A stretch of DNA of 20,710 bases from positions 1 through 20,710 of the IMG/VR virus record IMGVR_UViG_3300032084_002394; one strand, 5' to 3'. Below the pieces are notes generated by a model. That model searched no databases and was not told the DNA's origin. It was given only the letters and a program-made list of their open reading frames with translations. The position numbers and the translations under genes were made by a program. Below are positions 1 to 19,795 of the stretch, in pieces; the stretch's first letter is position 1; every line of letters starts with the position of its first letter. Source of the stretch: a virus.

Positions 1-1029
1 AGACCATTGTTCAGGAATAAACAGTCCAGATAATCCTGTAGTACCATCTTTATCTAATAAATCTGTTTTAACAGCATATATATCATTATTAGTAGGATTA
101 AGTATCATATCCTTAAGTGGATTACATTGATCTAAATCACCAACAGATCCTGCTGCAATAAACTGTCCTGTAGTCATCATTCCAGATGACATTGCGGGAC
201 GTAAATACTCATACGTATCCATCATCTTGGGTGCAATACCAGCTTCTTCATGAAAGAAATAAGTTGTAGGTCCACCTACTCCAGTTGTTGCATTCTTTTC
301 AAATGATGCACCTTGTATCTTAGATTTTAAACCTTTACTTGTTTTTCTATTGCCAATTCTAACCTCAATCTGCTGTTGCCAAAGTAAAACTTTTTCCGGG
401 TTACTTGGTCTATACCAAGCAGTATGCTCATTAAGAAAATCTTTATACTCTTCTAGAAACTTCCAGGATCCTTTATCATTAATGTAATCTTTAAGACTTG
501 CCCCTATTTTACAAACACTACCTTCTTCAAACCAGTATGTATTTATAAGCTTACCCATATGGAAATAAGAAGATGCTATCTGACGTTTTTTAAATATAGC
601 AGCATGTTTATTATTTAATTCTGCTATTATCTCATACATAGCCATATGATACTGAGCATCTCTAACTTTTGCAAATCCGTATGCTTTTTCTTCTTTATCA
701 TAAATAGGAAGAAAATTCAACCACATATAATAGTCTCTGGTTAAATACCATGTCTCACCTTTATTGTGATATATAACTCCATTTCTACATTTATCTTTTT
801 CTTTATCCCAATATGTAGTGAAGTCTTTTGATCTAAAAGGTTTGTTGCAATAAAACCCTTGATTATTAAATATTCTAGCCTGTTCATTAAAAATGAAAGA
901 CGTTTCATCAAAGTTATATTTACCAGGCTCCTTAAGTAATGGCAATAAAAAATCTAACCACTCTTGCTCATTTTCAAAAGTGGTTTCAGTCCATTGACCA
1001 TTATCATATGTTTGTACAATTTTATGCAT
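1..1029 (-). CDS. terL: Phage terminase large subunit (TerL), 3' end cut off by window edge
   Basis: The motor subunit of phage DNA packaging: an ATPase joined to a nuclease that translocates and cuts DNA at the portal. I translated 343 codons from the ATG at 1029; the reading frame is open to base 1, so the nuclease half is outside the window. A deviant Walker A lies at residues 145-160 (KKRQIASSYFHMG, like the KxRQ-type P-loops of T4-like terminases), a Walker B at 256-262 (TYFFHEE, with the catalytic Glu pair), and a GSVGD stretch at 294-298 fits the coupling motif. The N-terminal 100 residues are rich in aromatics. The start overlaps the end of the GroES-like gene by 8 bases, so the two are probably translationally coupled. 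The fold assignment is firm; the crAss-like affiliation is inference. Confidence 0.85.
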   Translation of the reverse strand, partial: MHKIVQTYDNGQWTETTFENEQEWLDFLLPLLKEPGKYNFDETSFIFNEQARIFNNQGFYCNKPFRSKDFTTYWDKEKDKCRNGVIYHNKGETWYLTRDYYMWLNFLPIYDKEEKAYGFAKVRDAQYHMAMYEIIAELNNKHAAIFKKRQIASSYFHMGKLINTYWFEEGSVCKIGASLKDYINDKGSWKFLEEYKDFLNEHTAWYRPSNPEKVLLWQQQIEVRIGNRKTSKGLKSKIQGASFEKNATTGVGGPTTYFFHEEAGIAPKMMDTYEYLRPAMSSGMMTTGQFIAAGSVGDLDQCNPLKDMILNPTNNDIYAVKTDLLDKDGTTGLSGLFIPEQWS

Positions 1030-1297
1030 CTACTATTTTTGCAAATATCATATCATAGTTCATCAGCTGTACTTTTTCGCCATCATGCATCATATCTATA
1101 CCGTCTGCATGTTCAGAGTATTTTACAACATCTCCAACCTCTAATCCTTGAACGGCATCTCCAACTGCTACTATATCAGCAATATATTCATTTACTACTT
1201 CTGTTTTTAGTATTGTTGTTCCCGGATAATATTGAGCTGGTACTTTGTTCTTTATCAATACTTTTCTGCCTATTGGTACTACCTTTTGCTTTGTCAT
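1022..1297 (-). CDS. GroES-like co-chaperonin
   Basis: A 91-residue protein of the Cpn10/GroES fold, which caps the GroEL folding chamber. Visible landmarks are an N-terminal strand like GroES (VVPIGRKVLIK, residues 6-16), a candidate mobile loop with a hydrophobic TTIL near 27-30 where GroES has IVL, a central AVGDAV / LEVGDVVKY region (44-60), and the closing strands EKVQLMNYDMIFAKIVDA (74-91). Phages such as T4 (gp31) use their own co-chaperonin to fold the capsid protein in host GroEL. The upstream ATG at 1330 would add 11 low-complexity residues; I prefer 1297 because AATCAAATAAAAATG resembles the A-rich starts of other genes here. It lies between a protein of unknown function and TerL, fitting a role in head assembly. 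Confidence 0.8.
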   Translation of the reverse strand: MTKQKVVPIGRKVLIKNKVPAQYYPGTTILKTEVVNEYIADIVAVGDAVQGLEVGDVVKYSEHADGIDMMHDGEKVQLMNYDMIFAKIVDA

Positions 1298-1350
1298 TTT
1301 TATTTGATTTTGATTTGTATATGGGTTCATCCCAGTATAAAAAAATTAAA

Positions 1351-6748: not shown

Positions 6749-6934
6749 GTTACTTCTTTATATAAATAATATACAAATTTCCTAGCAGTCCCCCCACTCT
6801 TTAATCCAAAAAATTTATACCCCCTCTGCAAAATGTTGTATGTGTTGCATGTGCATGGGGTCCTATGATTCTGCTCCCCGGCTAAATTTTGAGTTGGGGA
6901 TACCCCCTAGCCAATAATTTAAAAAATTAAAGAT
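6749..6934. promoter_or_regulatory. Divergent intergenic region with competing G/C-tract hairpins
   Basis: Both arms are read away from this 186-base gap, so it should hold promoters for each. It contains GGGG at 6857-6860, CCCC at 6876-6879, GGGG at 6896-6899 and CCCCC at 6903-6907. The middle CCCC can pair with either G-tract, and the last G-tract with the following C-tract (GGGGATACCCC), extended by GGCT (6880-6883) with AGCC (6909-6912). ATACCCCCT occurs twice (6817-6825, 6900-6908). A TAAATTTTG (6883-6891 region) is one base off a -7 box on the plus strand. No exact promoter is seen on the minus strand. Confidence 0.5.
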
Positions 6935-7231
6935 ATGTCACAGAAAAAATTAATTTTCAGCAACAAATCACAATCAGTGATTGATTTCGTAATAAGCTTA
7001 GGTGCTAACACCATCAAGCTTATCAAGAACCCTAACACCAAGAAGAACTTCTTCGTGGTGGACGGCACCGAGATGACAGGCAGAGTATCAAAGGAGATAA
7101 CAAAGTTATCACCTGAACTCCGCGTCACCTGGGTTGACGTTGAAGGCGGAACAGAAGAGGACTCCTCTTACTTGTTACACCTTCCGGGCTCTGACGAGAA
7201 CACGTTGGACACTCTATCCTGCAAAGGATAA
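6935..7231 (+). CDS. Small hypothetical protein, first gene of rightward arm
   Basis: A 98-residue soluble protein: NKSQSVIDFVISLGANTIKL, KNPNTKKNFFVVDGTEMTG, then an acidic C-terminus with a YLLHLPGSDENTLDTL segment. No known domain. The codons between about 7010 and 7200 are noticeably richer in G and C (aagaagaacttcttcgtgg) than those of other right-arm genes, which could mean strong expression or a separate origin. The stop codon lies inside the hairpin at 7210-7236. Function unknown. Confidence 0.7.
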   Translation: MSQKKLIFSNKSQSVIDFVISLGANTIKLIKNPNTKKNFFVVDGTEMTGRVSKEITKLSPELRVTWVDVEGGTEEDSSYLLHLPGSDENTLDTLSCKG

Positions 7232-7236
7232 GAGTG
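7210..7236 (+). terminator. Hairpin spanning the stop codon
   Basis: CACTCTATCC (7210-7219) pairs with GGATAAGAGTG (7226-7236), ten pairs with one bulged A and a six-base loop. The TAA stop at 7229-7231 lies in the 3' arm. No T-run follows, so it may protect or process an mRNA end rather than terminate transcription. Confidence 0.4.
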
Positions 7237-7916
7237 CCCTAACGGGTTTGCCCTGTTGCTGGAAAGCATTGTTACTCAAGCGGGCTGAGTAACTGCGCAC
7301 TGTAGATTTGCGTGGAAACAGAACTACACTACTACCAATGTTTAAGGGATAGCATTGGTAGTAGTTATTTAATTATCCTATTACACTTAAAACCAAACAC
7401 GTTATGTACACAGAACATAATGGTGTAATCACTCCTTCAGAGTGGTTGACCAACCCAAACGCGTAGTAATACGTGGGTAATGCCGGTCCAAAGGCGGAGT
7501 TTAACCAGCTTAGCAACAGAAATAGGTTAAATTTTTTATTTGTGTGTGTTGCATTATTAATGTGACACCTCATTTGCCATAATCATTGGGTTGGCATCCA
7601 ATAAAATATTAATTAGTCCATAGTATATATATGGCTAACAAACACTAGATGGTAGAAGGTAACTGAAATGTTATGCTGGTACAATGCTATTGAAAAAGGA
7701 TGTGGTAGATTCCGTTGAGAAGATTAGTTCTAGAATAATCATTCTCTCTACATAGTCATTTAGTGTTAACTTAATGAGAGCACACAAGTAAAACTAATTG
7801 TCAGGGAATTCTGCAGGTAGAAAAAGAAAGACGTTAAACTAATGCCTTCTTGTGTGTTCTCTCTCTCTATAGAGTTTATATAATAGCAACCCGTTTATTC
7901 ACTTAAAACTTTAACT
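7232..7916 (+). ncRNA. Hairpin-rich non-coding region, candidate structured RNA(s)
   Basis: No credible gene on either strand in 685 bases. It holds a series of strong hairpins: GTTACTCA/TGAGTAAC (7271-7278, 7286-7293), a perfect 13-bp stem ACTACTACCAATG/CATTGGTAGTAGT (7328-7340, 7353-7365), nested stems 7381-7386/7423-7428 and 7401-7407/7415-7421, CACTC/GAGTG (7430-7434, 7440-7444), and a 13-bp closing stem GAGAGCACACAAG/CTTGTGTGTTCTC (7776-7788, 7849-7861, one G-U). Strand is assumed from neighbours. No tRNA or known RNA family was recognised. It ends just before the 61-codon gene, so part may act as that gene's leader. Confidence 0.5.
7328..7365 (+). terminator. Perfect 13-bp hairpin, possible terminator or RNA element
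   Basis: Both arms are fully complementary with a 12-base loop (7341-7352). The bases after it (TATTTAATTATCC) are AT-rich but not a clean T-run. It may end a short transcript from the junction promoter or be a structural arm of the RNA region. Confidence 0.45.
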
Positions 7917-8102
7917 ATGATGTTTGAAGATGCACAATTTATGGCTGACCTATATAGTATCAGCCCAGAATTAACATGTCAGTGTGATGATGTTCACACT
8001 TGTCAACAATGCCATGAAGCATATGAAGAAGGTAAGCGTATTCGTTTACAGAAACTTCAAGATGCCATGGATAAAAGTACTAAAAGGGCACAGAGTCCTT
8101 GA
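7917..8102 (+). CDS. Small Cys/His protein, possible zinc-binding
   Basis: A 61-residue protein, the only credible gene within 2.3 kb of non-coding sequence. Four cysteines, C21, C23, C29 and C32, with H27 and H33 (CQCDDVHTCQQCH), make a compact metal-binding knuckle; a basic helix follows (GKRIRLQKLQDAMDK). Codon use is AT-rich like other right-arm genes. The leader TTTATTCACTTAAAAC is nearly the same as that of the gene at 9540. The stop lies between the arms of a 9-bp hairpin (8088-8096 with 8121-8129). It could bind DNA, RNA or a host protein; family not recognised. Confidence 0.65.
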   Translation: MMFEDAQFMADLYSISPELTCQCDDVHTCQQCHEAYEEGKRIRLQKLQDAMDKSTKRAQSP

Positions 8103-8129
8103 GATTTGATCACCTCATCCACTCTGTGC
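8088..8129 (+). terminator. Hairpin enclosing the end of the 61-codon gene
   Basis: GCACAGAGT (8088-8096) pairs perfectly with ACTCTGTGC (8121-8129), with a 24-base loop holding the TGA stop. No T-run follows, so it may be an mRNA 3'-end or processing structure rather than an intrinsic terminator. Confidence 0.4.
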
Positions 8130-8807
8130 TTATCTAATTATGGGGACAACGGGACAACCTTGGTTTGAATCCTAAACGTTGTAGTGCTACTGAACAATAG
8201 TAGGTAGCACTCTTTATAGTTGTAATAACTGTGCACAATGGATTGGGTAAAACCAGGACGTGCAGTAGGAAGTAATTACCCTGCAAGATTAACTTTAATT
8301 AAGTTAATGATAAGTTACTACAATTTTATTTGACGAAGTGCCTTACCAAGGCTAGTCCTGCAATGAGGATGAAGAAAAGGGAATGGTAAACCCATCAAAG
8401 TATATCTGGACAGGCCAAAACACGTTTGAACTACAAGCAATCACTAGGAATAGGAGGTTGTCTCTTCATTGAGAGTAGGAGTGCTAGTCTGGATGAATTA
8501 TATTGTGGCAATAATGCCAAAATTAAATTAAATAAAACCCATATTGCTAACTGATCATTAGTATTATGGTCACAGGGACAAGATGCAGCATAGTCTCCTC
8601 GTTAGTTGAAAGAAGATACATTGAATTCAGTCTTTACTAACTACCTGTGAAAGCTAAGGTGAGAATCCTTGGAACGCTTAACATTGCCGTGGCTTATGTC
8701 TATCCTTGAGATAGCATTAGTGTCTATAGAAATGTTCGCCAGCTCTCATGGCGTTAAGATAAACCAGTAATGGTATAAATCCATCAGCAACTTGAAAGGC
8801 TGTGGAG

Positions 8808-8831
8808 ATATATATAGTTCGCTATATGTAT
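8808..8831 (+). other. UUCG-tetraloop hairpin
   Basis: ATATATATAG (8808-8817), TTCG (8818-8821), CTATATGTAT (8822-8831): ten pairs including one G-U, closed by the stable UUCG tetraloop. The loop-closing pair is G-C rather than the most stable C-G. It is one of the clearest signs that the region works as RNA. Confidence 0.55.
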
Positions 8832-9285
8832 TTTATAGAAGAGTATTTCAATATCCATGTAACGGCAGCGTCAAATCCCTTCGGGTGCGTGAGTTGTGTG
8901 GAGAGTATGACAGGCATGCTCTTGAGCTTAAAAGGCAATAAGAATTGAGATAGGTATTGGTACTATGGTGTTGTCGCACTTAGAGCTGGTATTAGAATTT
9001 GCATCTAGAATGCTGTGAGAAATCACGTGTTCGTATAGATAATAGTTTAGTGAGTAGCCGTGACAAGCAAAAGCAGGTGGGAGTAGTAGTCTAAACTTTT
9101 CAAAAGAAAGCAAGATTACATAAACTCTAAGCGTCTCTTATCATTAACCTGAATCCTAACTTAGCCATTAGATTGGCACATTTAAACAAGAAAAACAAAT
9201 GAAGAAAGCAAAATTAGTTTAGAGACTATTGTGATGGCACTAACGCCAACAATGTTCTTATCCTTCTGTAATATGAAGGCATAGA

Positions 9286-9373
9286 TAGCTCGCAAGGCTT
9301 GCTATGAAGGAATCCGGTAGTATCTGTAGTGAGGTGACAACCTCTTTAGCTCGTAAGGCATGCGGTATGAAAG
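9286..9373 (+). repeat. Imperfect direct repeat inside the structured RNA region
   Basis: TAGCTCGCAAGGCTTGC then TATGAAGG (9286-9310) recurs as TAGCTCGTAAGGCATGC, GG, TATGAAAG (9347-9373), differing at three positions plus a two-base insertion. A perfect GAGGT/ACCTC hairpin sits between the copies. Conservation of TAGCTCG-AAGGC suggests a repeated RNA module. Confidence 0.5.
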
Positions 9374-9432
9374 TGAACTTATGACCACTTTAGTAGTGAT
9401 GGCGGACATCTTAATCCGTGAACATGTACAGT

Positions 9433-9452
9433 ACAGACCAGAAATGGACTGT
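9433..9452 (+). other. GAAA-tetraloop hairpin near end of RNA region
   Basis: ACAG (9433-9436) pairs with CTGT (9449-9452) and CCA with TGG, an A-A mismatch between them, capped by GAAA (9441-9444), a GNRA loop of the kind used for tertiary contacts. Confidence 0.45.
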
Positions 9453-9489
9453 GTGAGATAATTACTGAAAAGTTAATTAATCTGTACAC

Positions 9490-9525
9490 AAAGAGTCAAG
9501 CTCTCAGCTCTTTATTTTATTCACT
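9490..9525 (+). promoter_or_regulatory. Terminator-like hairpin plus TTTATTCAC leader element
   Basis: AAAGAG (9490-9495) pairs with CTCTTT (9508-9513), followed by TATTTTATT. TTTATTCACT (9516-9525) lies 24 bases before the ATG at 9540, matching the leader of the gene at 7917. Only about 26 bases separate the hairpin from the start, leaving no room for a normal promoter between them. Confidence 0.5.
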
Positions 9526-9539
9526 CAAAATCAACCACT

Positions 9540-9872
9540 ATGAGAAACTTATTTAAAGATGCTATCTATCTATTTGACATGGAGATAGAAAAGCCTACTA
9601 TTATTACCAGCCAAGCTGATGATAGTTTTGAAGTACATGTCATTCCAGATATGGAAAGAAATTGTATTGATGGATTCCATATTAAAGAAGTTGGGATTCA
9701 ATTGAATATTTATATTATTAAAGATAATGAATTAGAAGAAAAAGACATTTTTAGTGGAAATCACATGGATGATAAATATTTTTTTGATTTTCTTAAATGG
9801 TTTCATGATAATCCAAATCAATTAATAGAAGTATTCTACAGAAGTAAATTAGAAGTAATAACTAAAACGTAA
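9540..9872 (+). CDS. Hypothetical protein
   Basis: A 110-residue acidic protein without membrane segment, mixed alpha/beta: NLFKDAIYLFDMEIEKPTII, then MERNCIDGFHIKEVGIQLN, and KYFFDFLKWFHDNPNQLIEV near the C-terminus. No recognisable family. It is the first gene after the giant RNA region and is followed five bases later by the 87-residue gene, so the two form an operon. Strongly AT-rich codons. Function unknown. Confidence 0.7.
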   Translation: MRNLFKDAIYLFDMEIEKPTIITSQADDSFEVHVIPDMERNCIDGFHIKEVGIQLNIYIIKDNELEEKDIFSGNHMDDKYFFDFLKWFHDNPNQLIEVFYRSKLEVITKT

Positions 9873-15674: not shown

Positions 15675-16316
15675 ATGAAAAATTTAATAAAACAAACATT
15701 AGCAGTAATTGGATGTGTTATGCTATCTTTTGGGATAGTTGCAACAATGTCTTTTATTGCAGGACCTTCAAAAAGTAAAATAAAAATAGAAAAAAAATTA
15801 TTATCTAAAGGTAATGAAGCAGAAAGGTATTGCAATGAAAATGATTTTAATCAGGATTTTTGTATTCTCATAGATATGAGTTTACATTCTGGTAAGAAAA
15901 GATTTTATGTTTATGATTTTAAACAAAAAAAAGTTATACAATCATTTCCAGTAAGTCATGGTTGTGGAATTAACTCATGGGGATCTGGAGATAGTGCTGG
16001 AAATCCTAGTTTTAGCAATACAGTTGATAGCCATCTCTCATCTCTTGGTAAATATGCCATTGGAGATAGAGGTTGGAGTAGCTGGGGAGTAAATGTAAAT
16101 TACACGTTACATGGATTAGATTATTCTAATTCAAATGCTTATGACCGTTACATTGTATTTCACTCTTGGGAATGGATTTCAGATAATGAAATTTATCCTG
16201 CGGCATCAGCAGAAGGTTGGGGATGTCCAGCCATATCTAACAATAACTTTAATAAAGTAGATAAATTATTAAAAAATCAAACAAAACCCACTCTTATGTG
16301 GATTTACAATGAATAA
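15675..16316 (+). CDS. Exported L,D-transpeptidase-like protein (YkuD_2 type)
   Basis: A 213-residue protein anchored or exported by an N-terminal hydrophobic segment (LAVIGCVMLSFGIVATMSFI, 9-28). The body matches the murein L,D-transpeptidase catalytic family of Gram-negatives: FCILIDMSLHSGKKRFYVYD (62-81), SFPVSHGCG (90-98), SSLGKYAIGDRG (122-133), YTLHGLD (143-149), the catalytic His in YIVFHSW (H163) and the catalytic Cys in GWGCPAIS (C184). Such enzymes form or exchange peptide cross-links in the periplasm. In a phage it may strengthen or remodel the wall during infection. It overlaps the next small gene by one base. Confidence 0.82.
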   Translation: MKNLIKQTLAVIGCVMLSFGIVATMSFIAGPSKSKIKIEKKLLSKGNEAERYCNENDFNQDFCILIDMSLHSGKKRFYVYDFKQKKVIQSFPVSHGCGINSWGSGDSAGNPSFSNTVDSHLSSLGKYAIGDRGWSSWGVNVNYTLHGLDYSNSNAYDRYIVFHSWEWISDNEIYPAASAEGWGCPAISNNNFNKVDKLLKNQTKPTLMWIYNE

Positions 16317-16748: not shown

Positions 16749-17525
16749 ATGAAAAATTTAATTTCAATTTTAATACTGTCATTGCCACTATGTATGGTGG
16801 CATGCAGTAAAGATAAACTTGCAGAGGACTTGATGAGTTGGTATCCCACTGGAGAAGAATGGGATGATCATATAAATGTCATAGTAGAAGAAGCTAATAA
16901 AAGTAAAATTGAATCTTTAATTAATATTGATTCAACAAATACTTTTGGGCAATTAGTTGCAACACATGCAGATGTGCAGACATTGCAAAATACAGTATAT
17001 GATGGAAGTTGGGTTAACATAGGATATCCTGGCGGAGATCCTGGTTATCAACAAGGTGTTTGTACTGATGTTGTAATAAGAGCATATAGATTCATTAACA
17101 TTGATTTTCAAGAATTAATTCATGAAGATATGAAAATTGCTCACAGTGAATACAATAAAAGATATCTTACTAAAAAGTTAGATAACAATATTGACCATAG
17201 AAGAACTCAGAATATTCAAACTTATTTGACAAGAATAGGTGCTAAAATATCTGTCCCTAAAGTTAATGATTATAAACCAGGTGATATAGTATTTTGGGAT
17301 ATTGCTGCAGGACACACGGGTATTGTAAGTGATAAAAAATCTCTTAATCATGGAGGTTATATGGTTATTCACAATATTGGCGGAGGTGCTGAAATAGAAG
17401 ATCTCTTATATACTTGGACTCCTATGGAAGTTTACCGGCTTAATGATGATCATGTAAATAAATTACAAGAAAATTGTACTTTTGAATATAGTTATCATGA
17501 AGATTTTAAAAGATATGTCAAGTAG
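16749..17525 (+). CDS. DUF1287-family lipoprotein, NlpC/P60-like fold expected
   Basis: A 258-residue protein. Residues 1-19 are a lipoprotein signal (LPLCMVAC, C19 lipidated). From about 65 the sequence follows DUF1287: VYDGSWVNIGYPGGDPGYQQ, GVCTDVVIRAYR (C105), LIHEDM, NNIDHRRTQNIQTYL, YKPGDIVFWD, GHTGIVSD (H189) and MVIHNIGGG (H208). The Cys-His arrangement is that of NlpC/P60-like amidases and peptidases, so peptidoglycan is the expected substrate, though the family's reaction is not established to my knowledge. The end overlaps the helicase gene. Confidence 0.8.
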   Translation: MKNLISILILSLPLCMVACSKDKLAEDLMSWYPTGEEWDDHINVIVEEANKSKIESLINIDSTNTFGQLVATHADVQTLQNTVYDGSWVNIGYPGGDPGYQQGVCTDVVIRAYRFINIDFQELIHEDMKIAHSEYNKRYLTKKLDNNIDHRRTQNIQTYLTRIGAKISVPKVNDYKPGDIVFWDIAAGHTGIVSDKKSLNHGGYMVIHNIGGGAEIEDLLYTWTPMEVYRLNDDHVNKLQENCTFEYSYHEDFKRYVK

Positions 17526-18615
17526 AGAGAAAGTTCAAAAAGAAGCTTTAGAAATAACCCTAGGTCACAAACGTTGTGGCTTAGGGATTTCTATGGGTGT
17601 TGGTAAAACTAGAATAGCATTGCAACACCTTATAAAGAACTATGATCCTAATGGTAAGTATTTAGTTGTAGTTCCAAAGAATGCTGTAATAGATTCTTGG
17701 AATGATGAGCTGGTTAAGATGAAGAAGGATGTTTATTTATCACAACAAATAGAATTTGTAAATTATAGATCTATACATAAATGTAATCCAAATGACTACA
17801 GTATAGTTTATTTAGATGAGTGTCATAACTTATTACTTTCACATGAAGAGTTTCTTAAAAACTATAATGGGAAGATTTTAGGTTTAACTGGTACTCCACC
17901 TAGAAAAGGATCAGAAAAGTATACAATGGTTCAAAGATATTGTCCTATTGTATATGAGTTTAGTGTAGATGAAGCAACAGATAGTAATATTCTTAATGAT
18001 TATAGAATAATTATACATCATTTAGAATTATCTAAACTGCCAAACTTAAAAAAGACAAATAAGCAAGGTGGTGTATGGTATACATCTGAAGTAAAAGATT
18101 ATGCTTATTTAAATAGGCGTTGTCAAGAAGCTATGAGTGGAAAAGCTCAGCAAATGGCAGCAATAATGAGAATGCGTGGATTAATGGAATATGCAACTAA
18201 AGAAAGTTACTTAAATGGTATTATAAAAAATATTTCATCTAAGTGCATTATATTTGCCAACACACATAAACAAGCAGATCGTGTTTGTAAACATAGCTAC
18301 CATTCTGGAAATAAAAAATCAGATGAAAATCTAGAATTATTTAGTGATGGAAGAATTGATAAATTATCTTGTGTATTACAGCTCAGTGAGGGTATATCTA
18401 TTCCTAATCTGCGTCAAGGTATTATTATGCATGCTTATGGTAATAATAGGAAATCAGCGCAAAGAATAGGTAGACTTTTAAGGCTATCTCCAGATCAAAA
18501 AGCAACATGTCATATATTATGTTATAAAGGTACTCAAGATGAAAAATGGGTTACAGAGGCATTAAAGACATTTGATCAAAATAAAATAGAATATTTTAAT
18601 CCTTTAAATACTTAA
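17515..18615 (+). CDS. SF2 DEAD/DEAH-type helicase
   Basis: A 366-residue ATP-dependent helicase or translocase. Walker A is GISMGVGKTR (catalytic Lys near residue 31), motif II is DECH (101-104), motif III-like LTGTP (124-128), a second RecA-like domain begins near KCIIFANTHKQADRV (243-257), and motif VI is QRIGRLLR (316-323). The layout resembles SNF2/UvsW/T5-D10-like phage helicases, which act in replication, recombination or repair. An earlier ATG at 17482 is possible but would overlap the DUF1287 gene by 44 bases; 17515 leaves an 11-base overlap. Third in line after two envelope genes, but its job is on DNA. Confidence 0.85.
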   Translation: MSSREKVQKEALEITLGHKRCGLGISMGVGKTRIALQHLIKNYDPNGKYLVVVPKNAVIDSWNDELVKMKKDVYLSQQIEFVNYRSIHKCNPNDYSIVYLDECHNLLLSHEEFLKNYNGKILGLTGTPPRKGSEKYTMVQRYCPIVYEFSVDEATDSNILNDYRIIIHHLELSKLPNLKKTNKQGGVWYTSEVKDYAYLNRRCQEAMSGKAQQMAAIMRMRGLMEYATKESYLNGIIKNISSKCIIFANTHKQADRVCKHSYHSGNKKSDENLELFSDGRIDKLSCVLQLSEGISIPNLRQGIIMHAYGNNRKSAQRIGRLLRLSPDQKATCHILCYKGTQDEKWVTEALKTFDQNKIEYFNPLNT

Positions 18616-18706
18616 GTAGAATGATGCAGATTTCAGATAGGCTAGATCACTGAATAACTTGGGGGGACTGTAAAGCGAGTTCTCCCCTGCATGTTCTTAA
18701 ATTATT
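18616..18706 (+). promoter_or_regulatory. Short gap with G-tract/C-tract hairpin
   Basis: GGGGGGAC (18661-18668) can pair with GTTCTCCCC (18679-18687) with one bulge. The downstream TGTTCTTAAATTATT is T-rich but has no clear T-run, then the ATG at 18707. The TTTATTMAC element of other leaders is absent. Confidence 0.4.
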
Positions 18707-18982
18707 ATGAATACAAAAGAACTAGAAAAGATATATAATAAAAGATGTGAGGAAGATAGTCCTGCTATTATCCTATATAATGATAATGTAAATACATTTG
18801 ATCATGTAATAAATTGTTTAATTCAATTTGTAGATCACACCAGTATACAAGCAGAGCAATGCGCTGTATTAGTACATAATAAAGGTAAATGTTCTATAAA
18901 AAAAGGTGATATATCAGATCTAATACCTATAAAATCAAAATTATTAATGCACAAATTAAATGTAGAAATAGAATATGGGTAA
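18707..18982 (+). CDS. clpS: ClpS-like adaptor protein
   Basis: A 91-residue protein aligning by eye with Bacteroidota ClpS over its whole folded core: PAIILYNDNVNTFDHVINCL (19-38), IQFVDHTSIQAEQCAVLVHN (39-58), KGKCSIKKGDISDLIPIKSK (59-78), LNVEIEYG. ClpS delivers N-degron substrates to the ClpA/ClpC unfoldase. The ligands for the substrate alpha-amino group in E. coli (N34, D35, H66) correspond to N25, D26 and H57 here; the following Asp is replaced by Asn (N27). The N-terminal extension is short. Phage use could redirect host proteolysis or block the host adaptor. Its stop overlaps the zinc-ribbon gene. Confidence 0.85.
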   Translation: MNTKELEKIYNKRCEEDSPAIILYNDNVNTFDHVINCLIQFVDHTSIQAEQCAVLVHNKGKCSIKKGDISDLIPIKSKLLMHKLNVEIEYG

Positions 18983-19211
18983 AATGAAAGAATTATATAT
19001 TCAAATGCAAGAAGAAGAATATGAAGGAAATCCTTCAGAATATATTGCAGAACATATAAATAGAATAAATGAAGGGTTTTCAGCAACTAATATATTATGT
19101 CCAAATTGCATGAAAGAAAAGTTAGCTCAAGATAGTGAAACTGATCTAAAATGCTTTAAATGCGGATATGATTTTATTAAAATAGATGAAAAAACTGTAA
19201 AATTTAAATAA
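18975..19211 (+). CDS. Small zinc-ribbon protein
   Basis: A 78-residue protein: an acidic helical N-terminus (ELYIQMQEEEYEGNPSEYI), then two CxxC knuckles, C42/C45 (LCPNC) and C60/C63 (KCFKCGYDF), spaced as in zinc ribbons of transcription or nucleic-acid proteins. Start is ATG 18975, overlapping ClpS by eight bases, or 18984. Its coupling to ClpS suggests joint expression; a substrate or partner role is speculation. Confidence 0.7.
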   Translation: MGKMKELYIQMQEEEYEGNPSEYIAEHINRINEGFSATNILCPNCMKEKLAQDSETDLKCFKCGYDFIKIDEKTVKFK

Positions 19212-19228: not shown

Positions 19229-19795
19229 ATGAAAATATTCAAAAAATTAATGAAATTCTTACTAATAAGTGTATTAATGCTTGGATTAGGTATATTTATG
19301 TCTCATTACATAGAAGTTGGAGATTATAATGATTATGGTGAAGAAAGAATTTATATATCTGATAATGGATTTCATATAGATATTATAATTCCGGATGAAA
19401 ATAATGATTACACTGCTTATGGCTGGGGATCTAAGGTTTTCTTTATGGAAATTCCAACTTGGGATGATTTAACATATGATGTTGCATTTCAAGCTTTATT
19501 TACAAAACCTGCATCATGCATGCGTGTGACAAAGTATGATCAATACCAATCAAATTGGCAAATTATTAGATTGTCTGAAGAACAGCTTTTTTATATAAAA
19601 AAAAGAATAAATGAGCAATTTAAATATGATAGTGCCGGAAATAAAATATTAATCAAAGATAATTACTATGAGGCTAAAGGATCATACTGGGCTTTAAATA
19701 CATGTAACACTTGGGCAAACAATATAATTAAATCAGCAGGCCTAAGAGCTAAATTATATACATTAAATAGTGAATCAATAAGTGAATTATACTAA
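19229..19795 (+). CDS. DUF2459-like membrane-anchored protein (NlpC/P60-like)
   Basis: A 188-residue protein with an N-terminal anchor (FLLISVLMLGLGIFMSHYI, 10-28). The rest matches DUF2459 signatures as I know them: IYISDNGFHIDIIIP (41-55, H49), the AYGWGSKVFFMEIPTWDD run (63-80), IIRLSEEQL (112-120), YYEAKGSYWALNTCNTWANN (146-165, C159) and IIKSAGL. H49 and C159 would make a Cys-His pair as in the NlpC/P60 fold; the reaction is unknown. It faces the periplasm by its anchor. It overlaps the metallopeptidase-like gene by 14 bases. Confidence 0.72.
   Translation: MKIFKKLMKFLLISVLMLGLGIFMSHYIEVGDYNDYGEERIYISDNGFHIDIIIPDENNDYTAYGWGSKVFFMEIPTWDDLTYDVAFQALFTKPASCMRVTKYDQYQSNWQIIRLSEEQLFYIKKRINEQFKYDSAGNKILIKDNYYEAKGSYWALNTCNTWANNIIKSAGLRAKLYTLNSESISELY

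Follow-up and report, generated by a model that had tools for sequence, protein, structure and literature searches.

A phage-encoded ClpS protein, its recurrent helicase neighbour and a structured leader RNA

A short gene on a viral genome fragment raises the question of what a phage might do with ClpS, the small adaptor that supplies the host Clp protease with proteins, when one residue of the binding site is changed: deliver proteins to the host protease, shift the choice of what is delivered, or jam the host's adaptor site. The fragment, IMGVR_UViG_3300032084_002394, is a viral record 20,710 bases long that was analysed over its full length and is hereafter called the window; the gene, clpS, lies at positions 18707–18982 on the plus strand and encodes 91 amino acids from an ATG start. 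As the window fragment lacks terminase, portal and capsid genes, these were read in a related 115-kb contig, that of locus L172, where the terminase is ~25% identical to those of crAss-like phages, the portal and head proteins match PHROG families and the capsid match is weak. Crassvirales or crAss-like phages are found, at low identity, among the named relatives of the terminase, portal and head proteins, and the window may derive from a large tailed phage related to the Crassvirales, with a ClpS of Bacteroidota type. The same contig (L251–L256) also encodes proteins of up to 5,244 amino acids, a ribonucleotide reductase and a DNA polymerase.

The reading frame at 18707–18982 encodes a genuine ClpS. 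It matches the PF02617 profile with an E-value of 2.7e-14, and its 53.1 bits clear the gathering threshold of 23. Weak matches to several NCBIfam ClpS models stay below the narrow equivalog cut-offs of those models. An AlphaFold2 model computed from a 54-row alignment reaches a pLDDT of 86.3 with its elements in ClpS order, and the top PDB ranks for this model are almost all ClpS chains (Foldseek E 3e-7). The best solved structures are ClpS of M. smegmatis, E. coli, Caulobacter and Arabidopsis, with Z of 13–15 (maximum 15.1), and the L7/L12 structures score well below them at Z 10. Searching the PDB with the alignment likewise retrieves ClpS, unlike a phmmer search with the single protein, whose sole matches, to hexokinase, contain no significant individual stretch and were discarded as noise. 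A sequence-only reading of this DNA had recognized a phage-encoded ClpS core, which the profile score, the predicted fold and the viral nature of the record bear out; a profile search, proposed there as the check that could place the protein outside ClpS, places it inside PF02617.

The protein adds a member to a known family, and phage-encoded ClpS as such is already known. In a survey of jumbo phages, one such protein (AMM43882.1) was proposed to serve host ClpAP as its adaptor (PMC7824862), and Atu_ph07, a jumbo phage of Agrobacterium, encodes a ClpS, gp708, along with ClpA, ClpX and ClpP-like proteins (PMC6102473). The window protein resembles these two in being a phage-encoded ClpS proposed to work with host ClpAP, but differs in that its gene has a structured RNA leader and its sampled relatives are without a Clp_N unfoldase. 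Our literature search found no paper on ClpS in crAss-like phages. With chromosomal Bacteroidota ClpS the window protein shares the fold, the NDxxNTFDHV motif, the Phe gatekeeper, the His ligand and the extension length at ~50–60% identity, whereas it is phage-borne, encoded beside a helicase and carries Val rather than Cys at residue 42. The latter is its only departure from the conserved set, that is, the alignment positions that 85% or more of the 79 chromosomal Bacteroidota sequences share. More than 500 related loci are present in viral contigs, and the occurrence of clpS in hundreds of these makes the idea of a phage adaptor testable in a common virus group.

An association of clpS with an SF2 helicase recurs in large Bacteroidota phages and was unexpected. 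The window copy of this SF2/SNF2-type helicase occupies 17482–18615 on the plus strand (Pfam ResIII/Helicase_C; PHROG DNA helicase, E 2e-37). Among 72 non-redundant phage clpS loci the helicase lies on the same stretch in 35; clpS follows it directly in 28 of these and overlaps it in 2 more owing to a start-codon artefact. Viewed from the helicase, clpS is the next gene at 7 of 12 loci and not at the other 5, so that clpS is evidently dispensable. The gene behind clpS, which overlaps its stop codon, encodes a protein with weak zinc-ribbon matches (18975–19211, plus strand) and had been suggested as a possible co-encoded partner of the adaptor. The ribbon follows the helicase in the absence of clpS in L331, L334 and L335, however, and most clpS loci have no ribbon; since it stands behind the helicase whether clpS is there or not, it is a helicase neighbour with clpS as an optional gene between the two, and the idea of a dedicated ClpS partner is rejected. 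In L331 (5125–5155), which lacks clpS and the RNA, the gap between helicase and ribbon contains a hairpin with a run of T, resembling a terminator. Related helicases are found in Flavobacterium phage FpV21 (Fipvunavirus, 32% identity) and Cellulophaga phage phi14:2 (Crassvirales, 25% identity); no ClpS is annotated after the helicase in either phage, and tblastn retrieved none from them.

The window ClpS pocket comprises N25, D26, N27, F31 at the gatekeeper position, V34 and H57. In a crystal structure of Caulobacter ClpS with bound peptide, the residues that hold the α-amino group are Asn47, Asp49 and His79, and Asp48 is a pocket residue (PMC12493166). Pocket mapping equates N25, N27 and H57 with Asn47, Asp49 and His79, and D26 with Asp48; the ligands Asn47 and His79 and the adjacent Asp48 are present in the window protein as N25, H57 and D26. 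Residue 27 (codon AAT, 18785–18787, plus strand), mostly Asp in ClpS, sits on the Asp49 position, which makes the substituted residue one of the α-amino ligands. The claims that N25, D26 and H57 are kept and that the next Asp has become Asn both stand, but D26, previously counted among the amino-group ligands, lines the pocket instead. In a modelled M. tuberculosis ClpS–ClpC1 complex, an Asp at the D26 position makes the strongest unfoldase contact and is followed by Pro (PMC6274998), so that a natural ClpS can be without Asp at position 27.

Given this anatomy, the simplest and most likely reading is that of an adaptor that would use the host unfoldase and host N-degrons, and we assign a probability of roughly 0.6 to the window protein being a functional Bacteroidota-type adaptor on host ClpA/ClpC. 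During infection, the phage ClpS would dock on the N-domain of the host unfoldase and bind proteins whose N-terminal residue is bulky and hydrophobic, its N-terminal extension would thread into the unfoldase pore and the substrate would be passed to ClpP, while the extra ClpS would draw the host protease off ssrA-tagged proteins and further substrates that it takes directly. The disordered extension of E. coli ClpS enters the ClpA channel, where pore loops pull on it during delivery, and ClpS also inhibits the degradation of ssrA substrates (PMC9663308). The window extension counts 16 residues before the core from the first ATG, compared to 16–24 in most bacterial homologues, and this normal length favours delivery over competition for the adaptor site. 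Clp genes were scored in 21 related phage records, including 100–200-kb contigs and one 636-kb phage, the window itself being a 20.7-kb fragment: none of the 21 carries a Clp_N unfoldase domain and none an aminoacyl-transferase, with positive controls detected, and ClpP is present in 4. In these relatives, the former absence speaks against pairing with a phage-encoded unfoldase and the latter against pairing with a phage Leu/Phe transferase, and the earlier proposal of an adaptor for the host protease fits the missing unfoldase. As a counterpoint, one charged contact to the α-amino group is lost with N27, a change that should tune affinity without abolishing binding. If true, a phage adaptor redirecting the host N-degron protease would be a cheap route to reshape the host proteome.

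The change at residue 27 could alternatively shift which N-termini are bound, so that the phage would mark chosen proteins, a reading that we regard as improbable. The position is a direct ligand, and among distinct sequences Asn is commoner in phage (22 of 110) than in chromosomal Bacteroidota ClpS (4 of 79; Fisher p = 0.005), although these sequences are not independent and their relatedness is ignored in the comparison. Residue 27 is nonetheless variable in the 79 bacterial proteins (Asp in 66, Glu in 6, Asn in 4, Ser in 2 and His in 1), as a ligand it touches the backbone amine, which every N-degron has, rather than a side chain, and the bacterial copies have the same gatekeeper, F31. On a tree of 124 ClpS sequences built without the residue-27 column, a tree with few columns and many weak forks, the Asn27 state needs at least 12 changes. 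Furthermore, the best bacterial match by E-value, L091, has a motif, NDNVNTFDHVINC, identical to that of the window and shares with it the stretch LYNDNVNTFDHVINCL; its gene stands at a chromosomal locus after the triosephosphate isomerase (tpiA) and prmA genes and is not part of a prophage. The nearest phage protein, L002, is 92% identical to the window ClpS and has Asp at this position. The chromosomal Asn27 copies, L091 among them, the repeated changes on the tree and the Asp of L002 rule out a phage-specific change, and the changed binding-site residue is better described as ordinary natural variation than as a special phage adaptation. The window Asn27 lies inside the natural range, and the identity of residue 27 is not ClpS-defining.

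Less far-fetched but still unlikely is a competitor that would bind host ClpA/ClpC, deliver poorly and jam the adaptor site, thereby shielding proteins of the phage, or others, from ClpAP/ClpCP. A known contact to the amino group is weakened by N27, and in one phage clade (L008, L056, L009, L031, L080 and others) the extension is down to ~4 residues, the form expected of a non-delivering adaptor; the window extension, however, is of normal length, the remaining pocket residues are kept and N27 also occurs in chromosomal ClpS presumed to be functional. Inhibitory versions may thus occur among these phages: judged by the E. coli model, such proteins could bind yet not deliver, which makes the short-extension clade a source of candidate natural inhibitors to set against candidate natural activators. 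Extensions of this length are also seen in L221, L050, L060, L038, L207, L247 and L236. We further doubt that clpS is a dispensable, host-derived hitchhiker drifting under weak selection. Its dN/dS between the window and L002 is 0.61 as opposed to 0.09–0.22 in six neighbours, a contrast that comprises 11 changes only (Fisher p = 0.04), and this excess of replacements makes relaxed constraint or a new role possible; the gene's absence from 5 of the 12 helicase loci points the same way. Against drift, the reading frame is intact, the host-conserved residues are kept, the placement is conserved across dozens of diverged phages and the leader RNA covaries. Between the same two loci the helicase differs at ~1% of bases and the leader at ~16% with its structure kept, and a short recombination tract could be the source of both the leader divergence and the clpS dN/dS.

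The leader occupies the 91-nt gap between helicase and clpS (18616–18706), which folds into a closing helix and two hairpins to form a three-way junction (18619–18696, plus strand). The closing helix P1 pairs 18619–18629 with 18687–18696 and encloses hairpins A (~18632–18654) and B (~18661–18686). The structure begins 3 nt past the helicase stop codon and ends 10 nt before the clpS ATG, and clpS-linked copies in general start at the same distance and end 9–13 nt before the ATG. The fold recurs in L002, L172, L184 and L214, all of which are recovered together with the window by a covariance model. The model also finds copies before other genes at E-values of 1e-5 to 1e-8, namely before a 57–60-residue lipoprotein (L338, L340, L345 and others, among them the L172 contig with its second copy) and before a 374-residue protein in L342; coordinates of copies outside the window are L255 18318–18394, L338 3890–3981 and L342 1122–1206. 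In an alignment of nine distinct copies to the model, pairing holds in 94% of cells, and both partners differ between copies in 14 of the 25 pairs, a level that none of 500 shuffles reached; the alignment was fitted to the structure, which favours pairing, yet controls with slid partners fall far lower, to 41–55%. Two loop motifs, UAGGCC and GGCG, are nearly invariant, and the window has GCU and AGC instead. The GCU of loop A (18641–18643) may kiss the AGC of loop B (18674–18676), a contact hinted at by this matched exchange, which is a single event.

No family in Rfam release 15 matches the leader even at permissive thresholds, and its reading as a known riboswitch is rejected on this ground; Rfam riboswitch-like leaders are also short, cis-located RNAs with a junction and hairpins, but the similarity is one of outline only. 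A loop-variant scan for other compensated kissing pairs gave 10 pattern matches, none fitting the model, and a looser pattern scan picked up 67 contigs, of which the model fits only four that were already known. BLASTN of one copy against named phages found none, and a scan of Bacteroidota chromosomes, run without a positive control, found none in 118 genomes under strict filters and none in 4 others. A match in L346 (E 0.003–0.01) was left out, as its loops differ. At the clpS loci L003 and L005 the leader is absent and clpS abuts the helicase.

The likeliest role of the leader is control of the next gene's translation, with antitermination and processing as alternatives, and the folded RNA between helicase and clpS would probably set clpS expression in cis. 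At about even odds, the leader is the first example of a class of cis-acting phage RNAs still to be catalogued. Its members would be three-way junctions whose two conserved loops probably kiss; they would stand just upstream of the start codons of unrelated genes (clpS, the small lipoprotein and the 374-residue protein) and control their expression, the phage thus switching host proteolysis via an RNA signal. The recurrence of clpS beside the helicase in Bacteroidota-type phages and the uncatalogued leader are the striking parts of the locus; as a covarying structure outside Rfam 15, the leader gives RNA biochemistry a defined target and may exceed the clpS half of the locus in novelty.

Elsewhere in the window, a gene for a GroES-like co-chaperonin (1022–1330, minus strand; Cpn10 E 4e-5, PHROG GroES E 3e-9) provides the phage with a second protein-quality-control gene. 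Upstream of the helicase lie genes for an L,D-transpeptidase (YkuD_2; 15675–16316) and a DUF1287 protein (16749–17525), and downstream of the zinc ribbon a DUF2459 gene (19229–19795), all on the plus strand; the YkuD gene is just 75% identical between the window and L002, its neighbours 95–99%. Finally, a 2.8-kb stretch at 6760–9540 is nearly free of long open reading frames. Positions 9079–9510 on the plus strand match the GOLLD RNA covariance model over its full length with 46 bits (E 2.9e-10) against a gathering score of 150, which makes this segment a candidate GOLLD-like giant RNA; the model also matches L003 at 272–706, and window 8805–9530 is 97% identical to L003.
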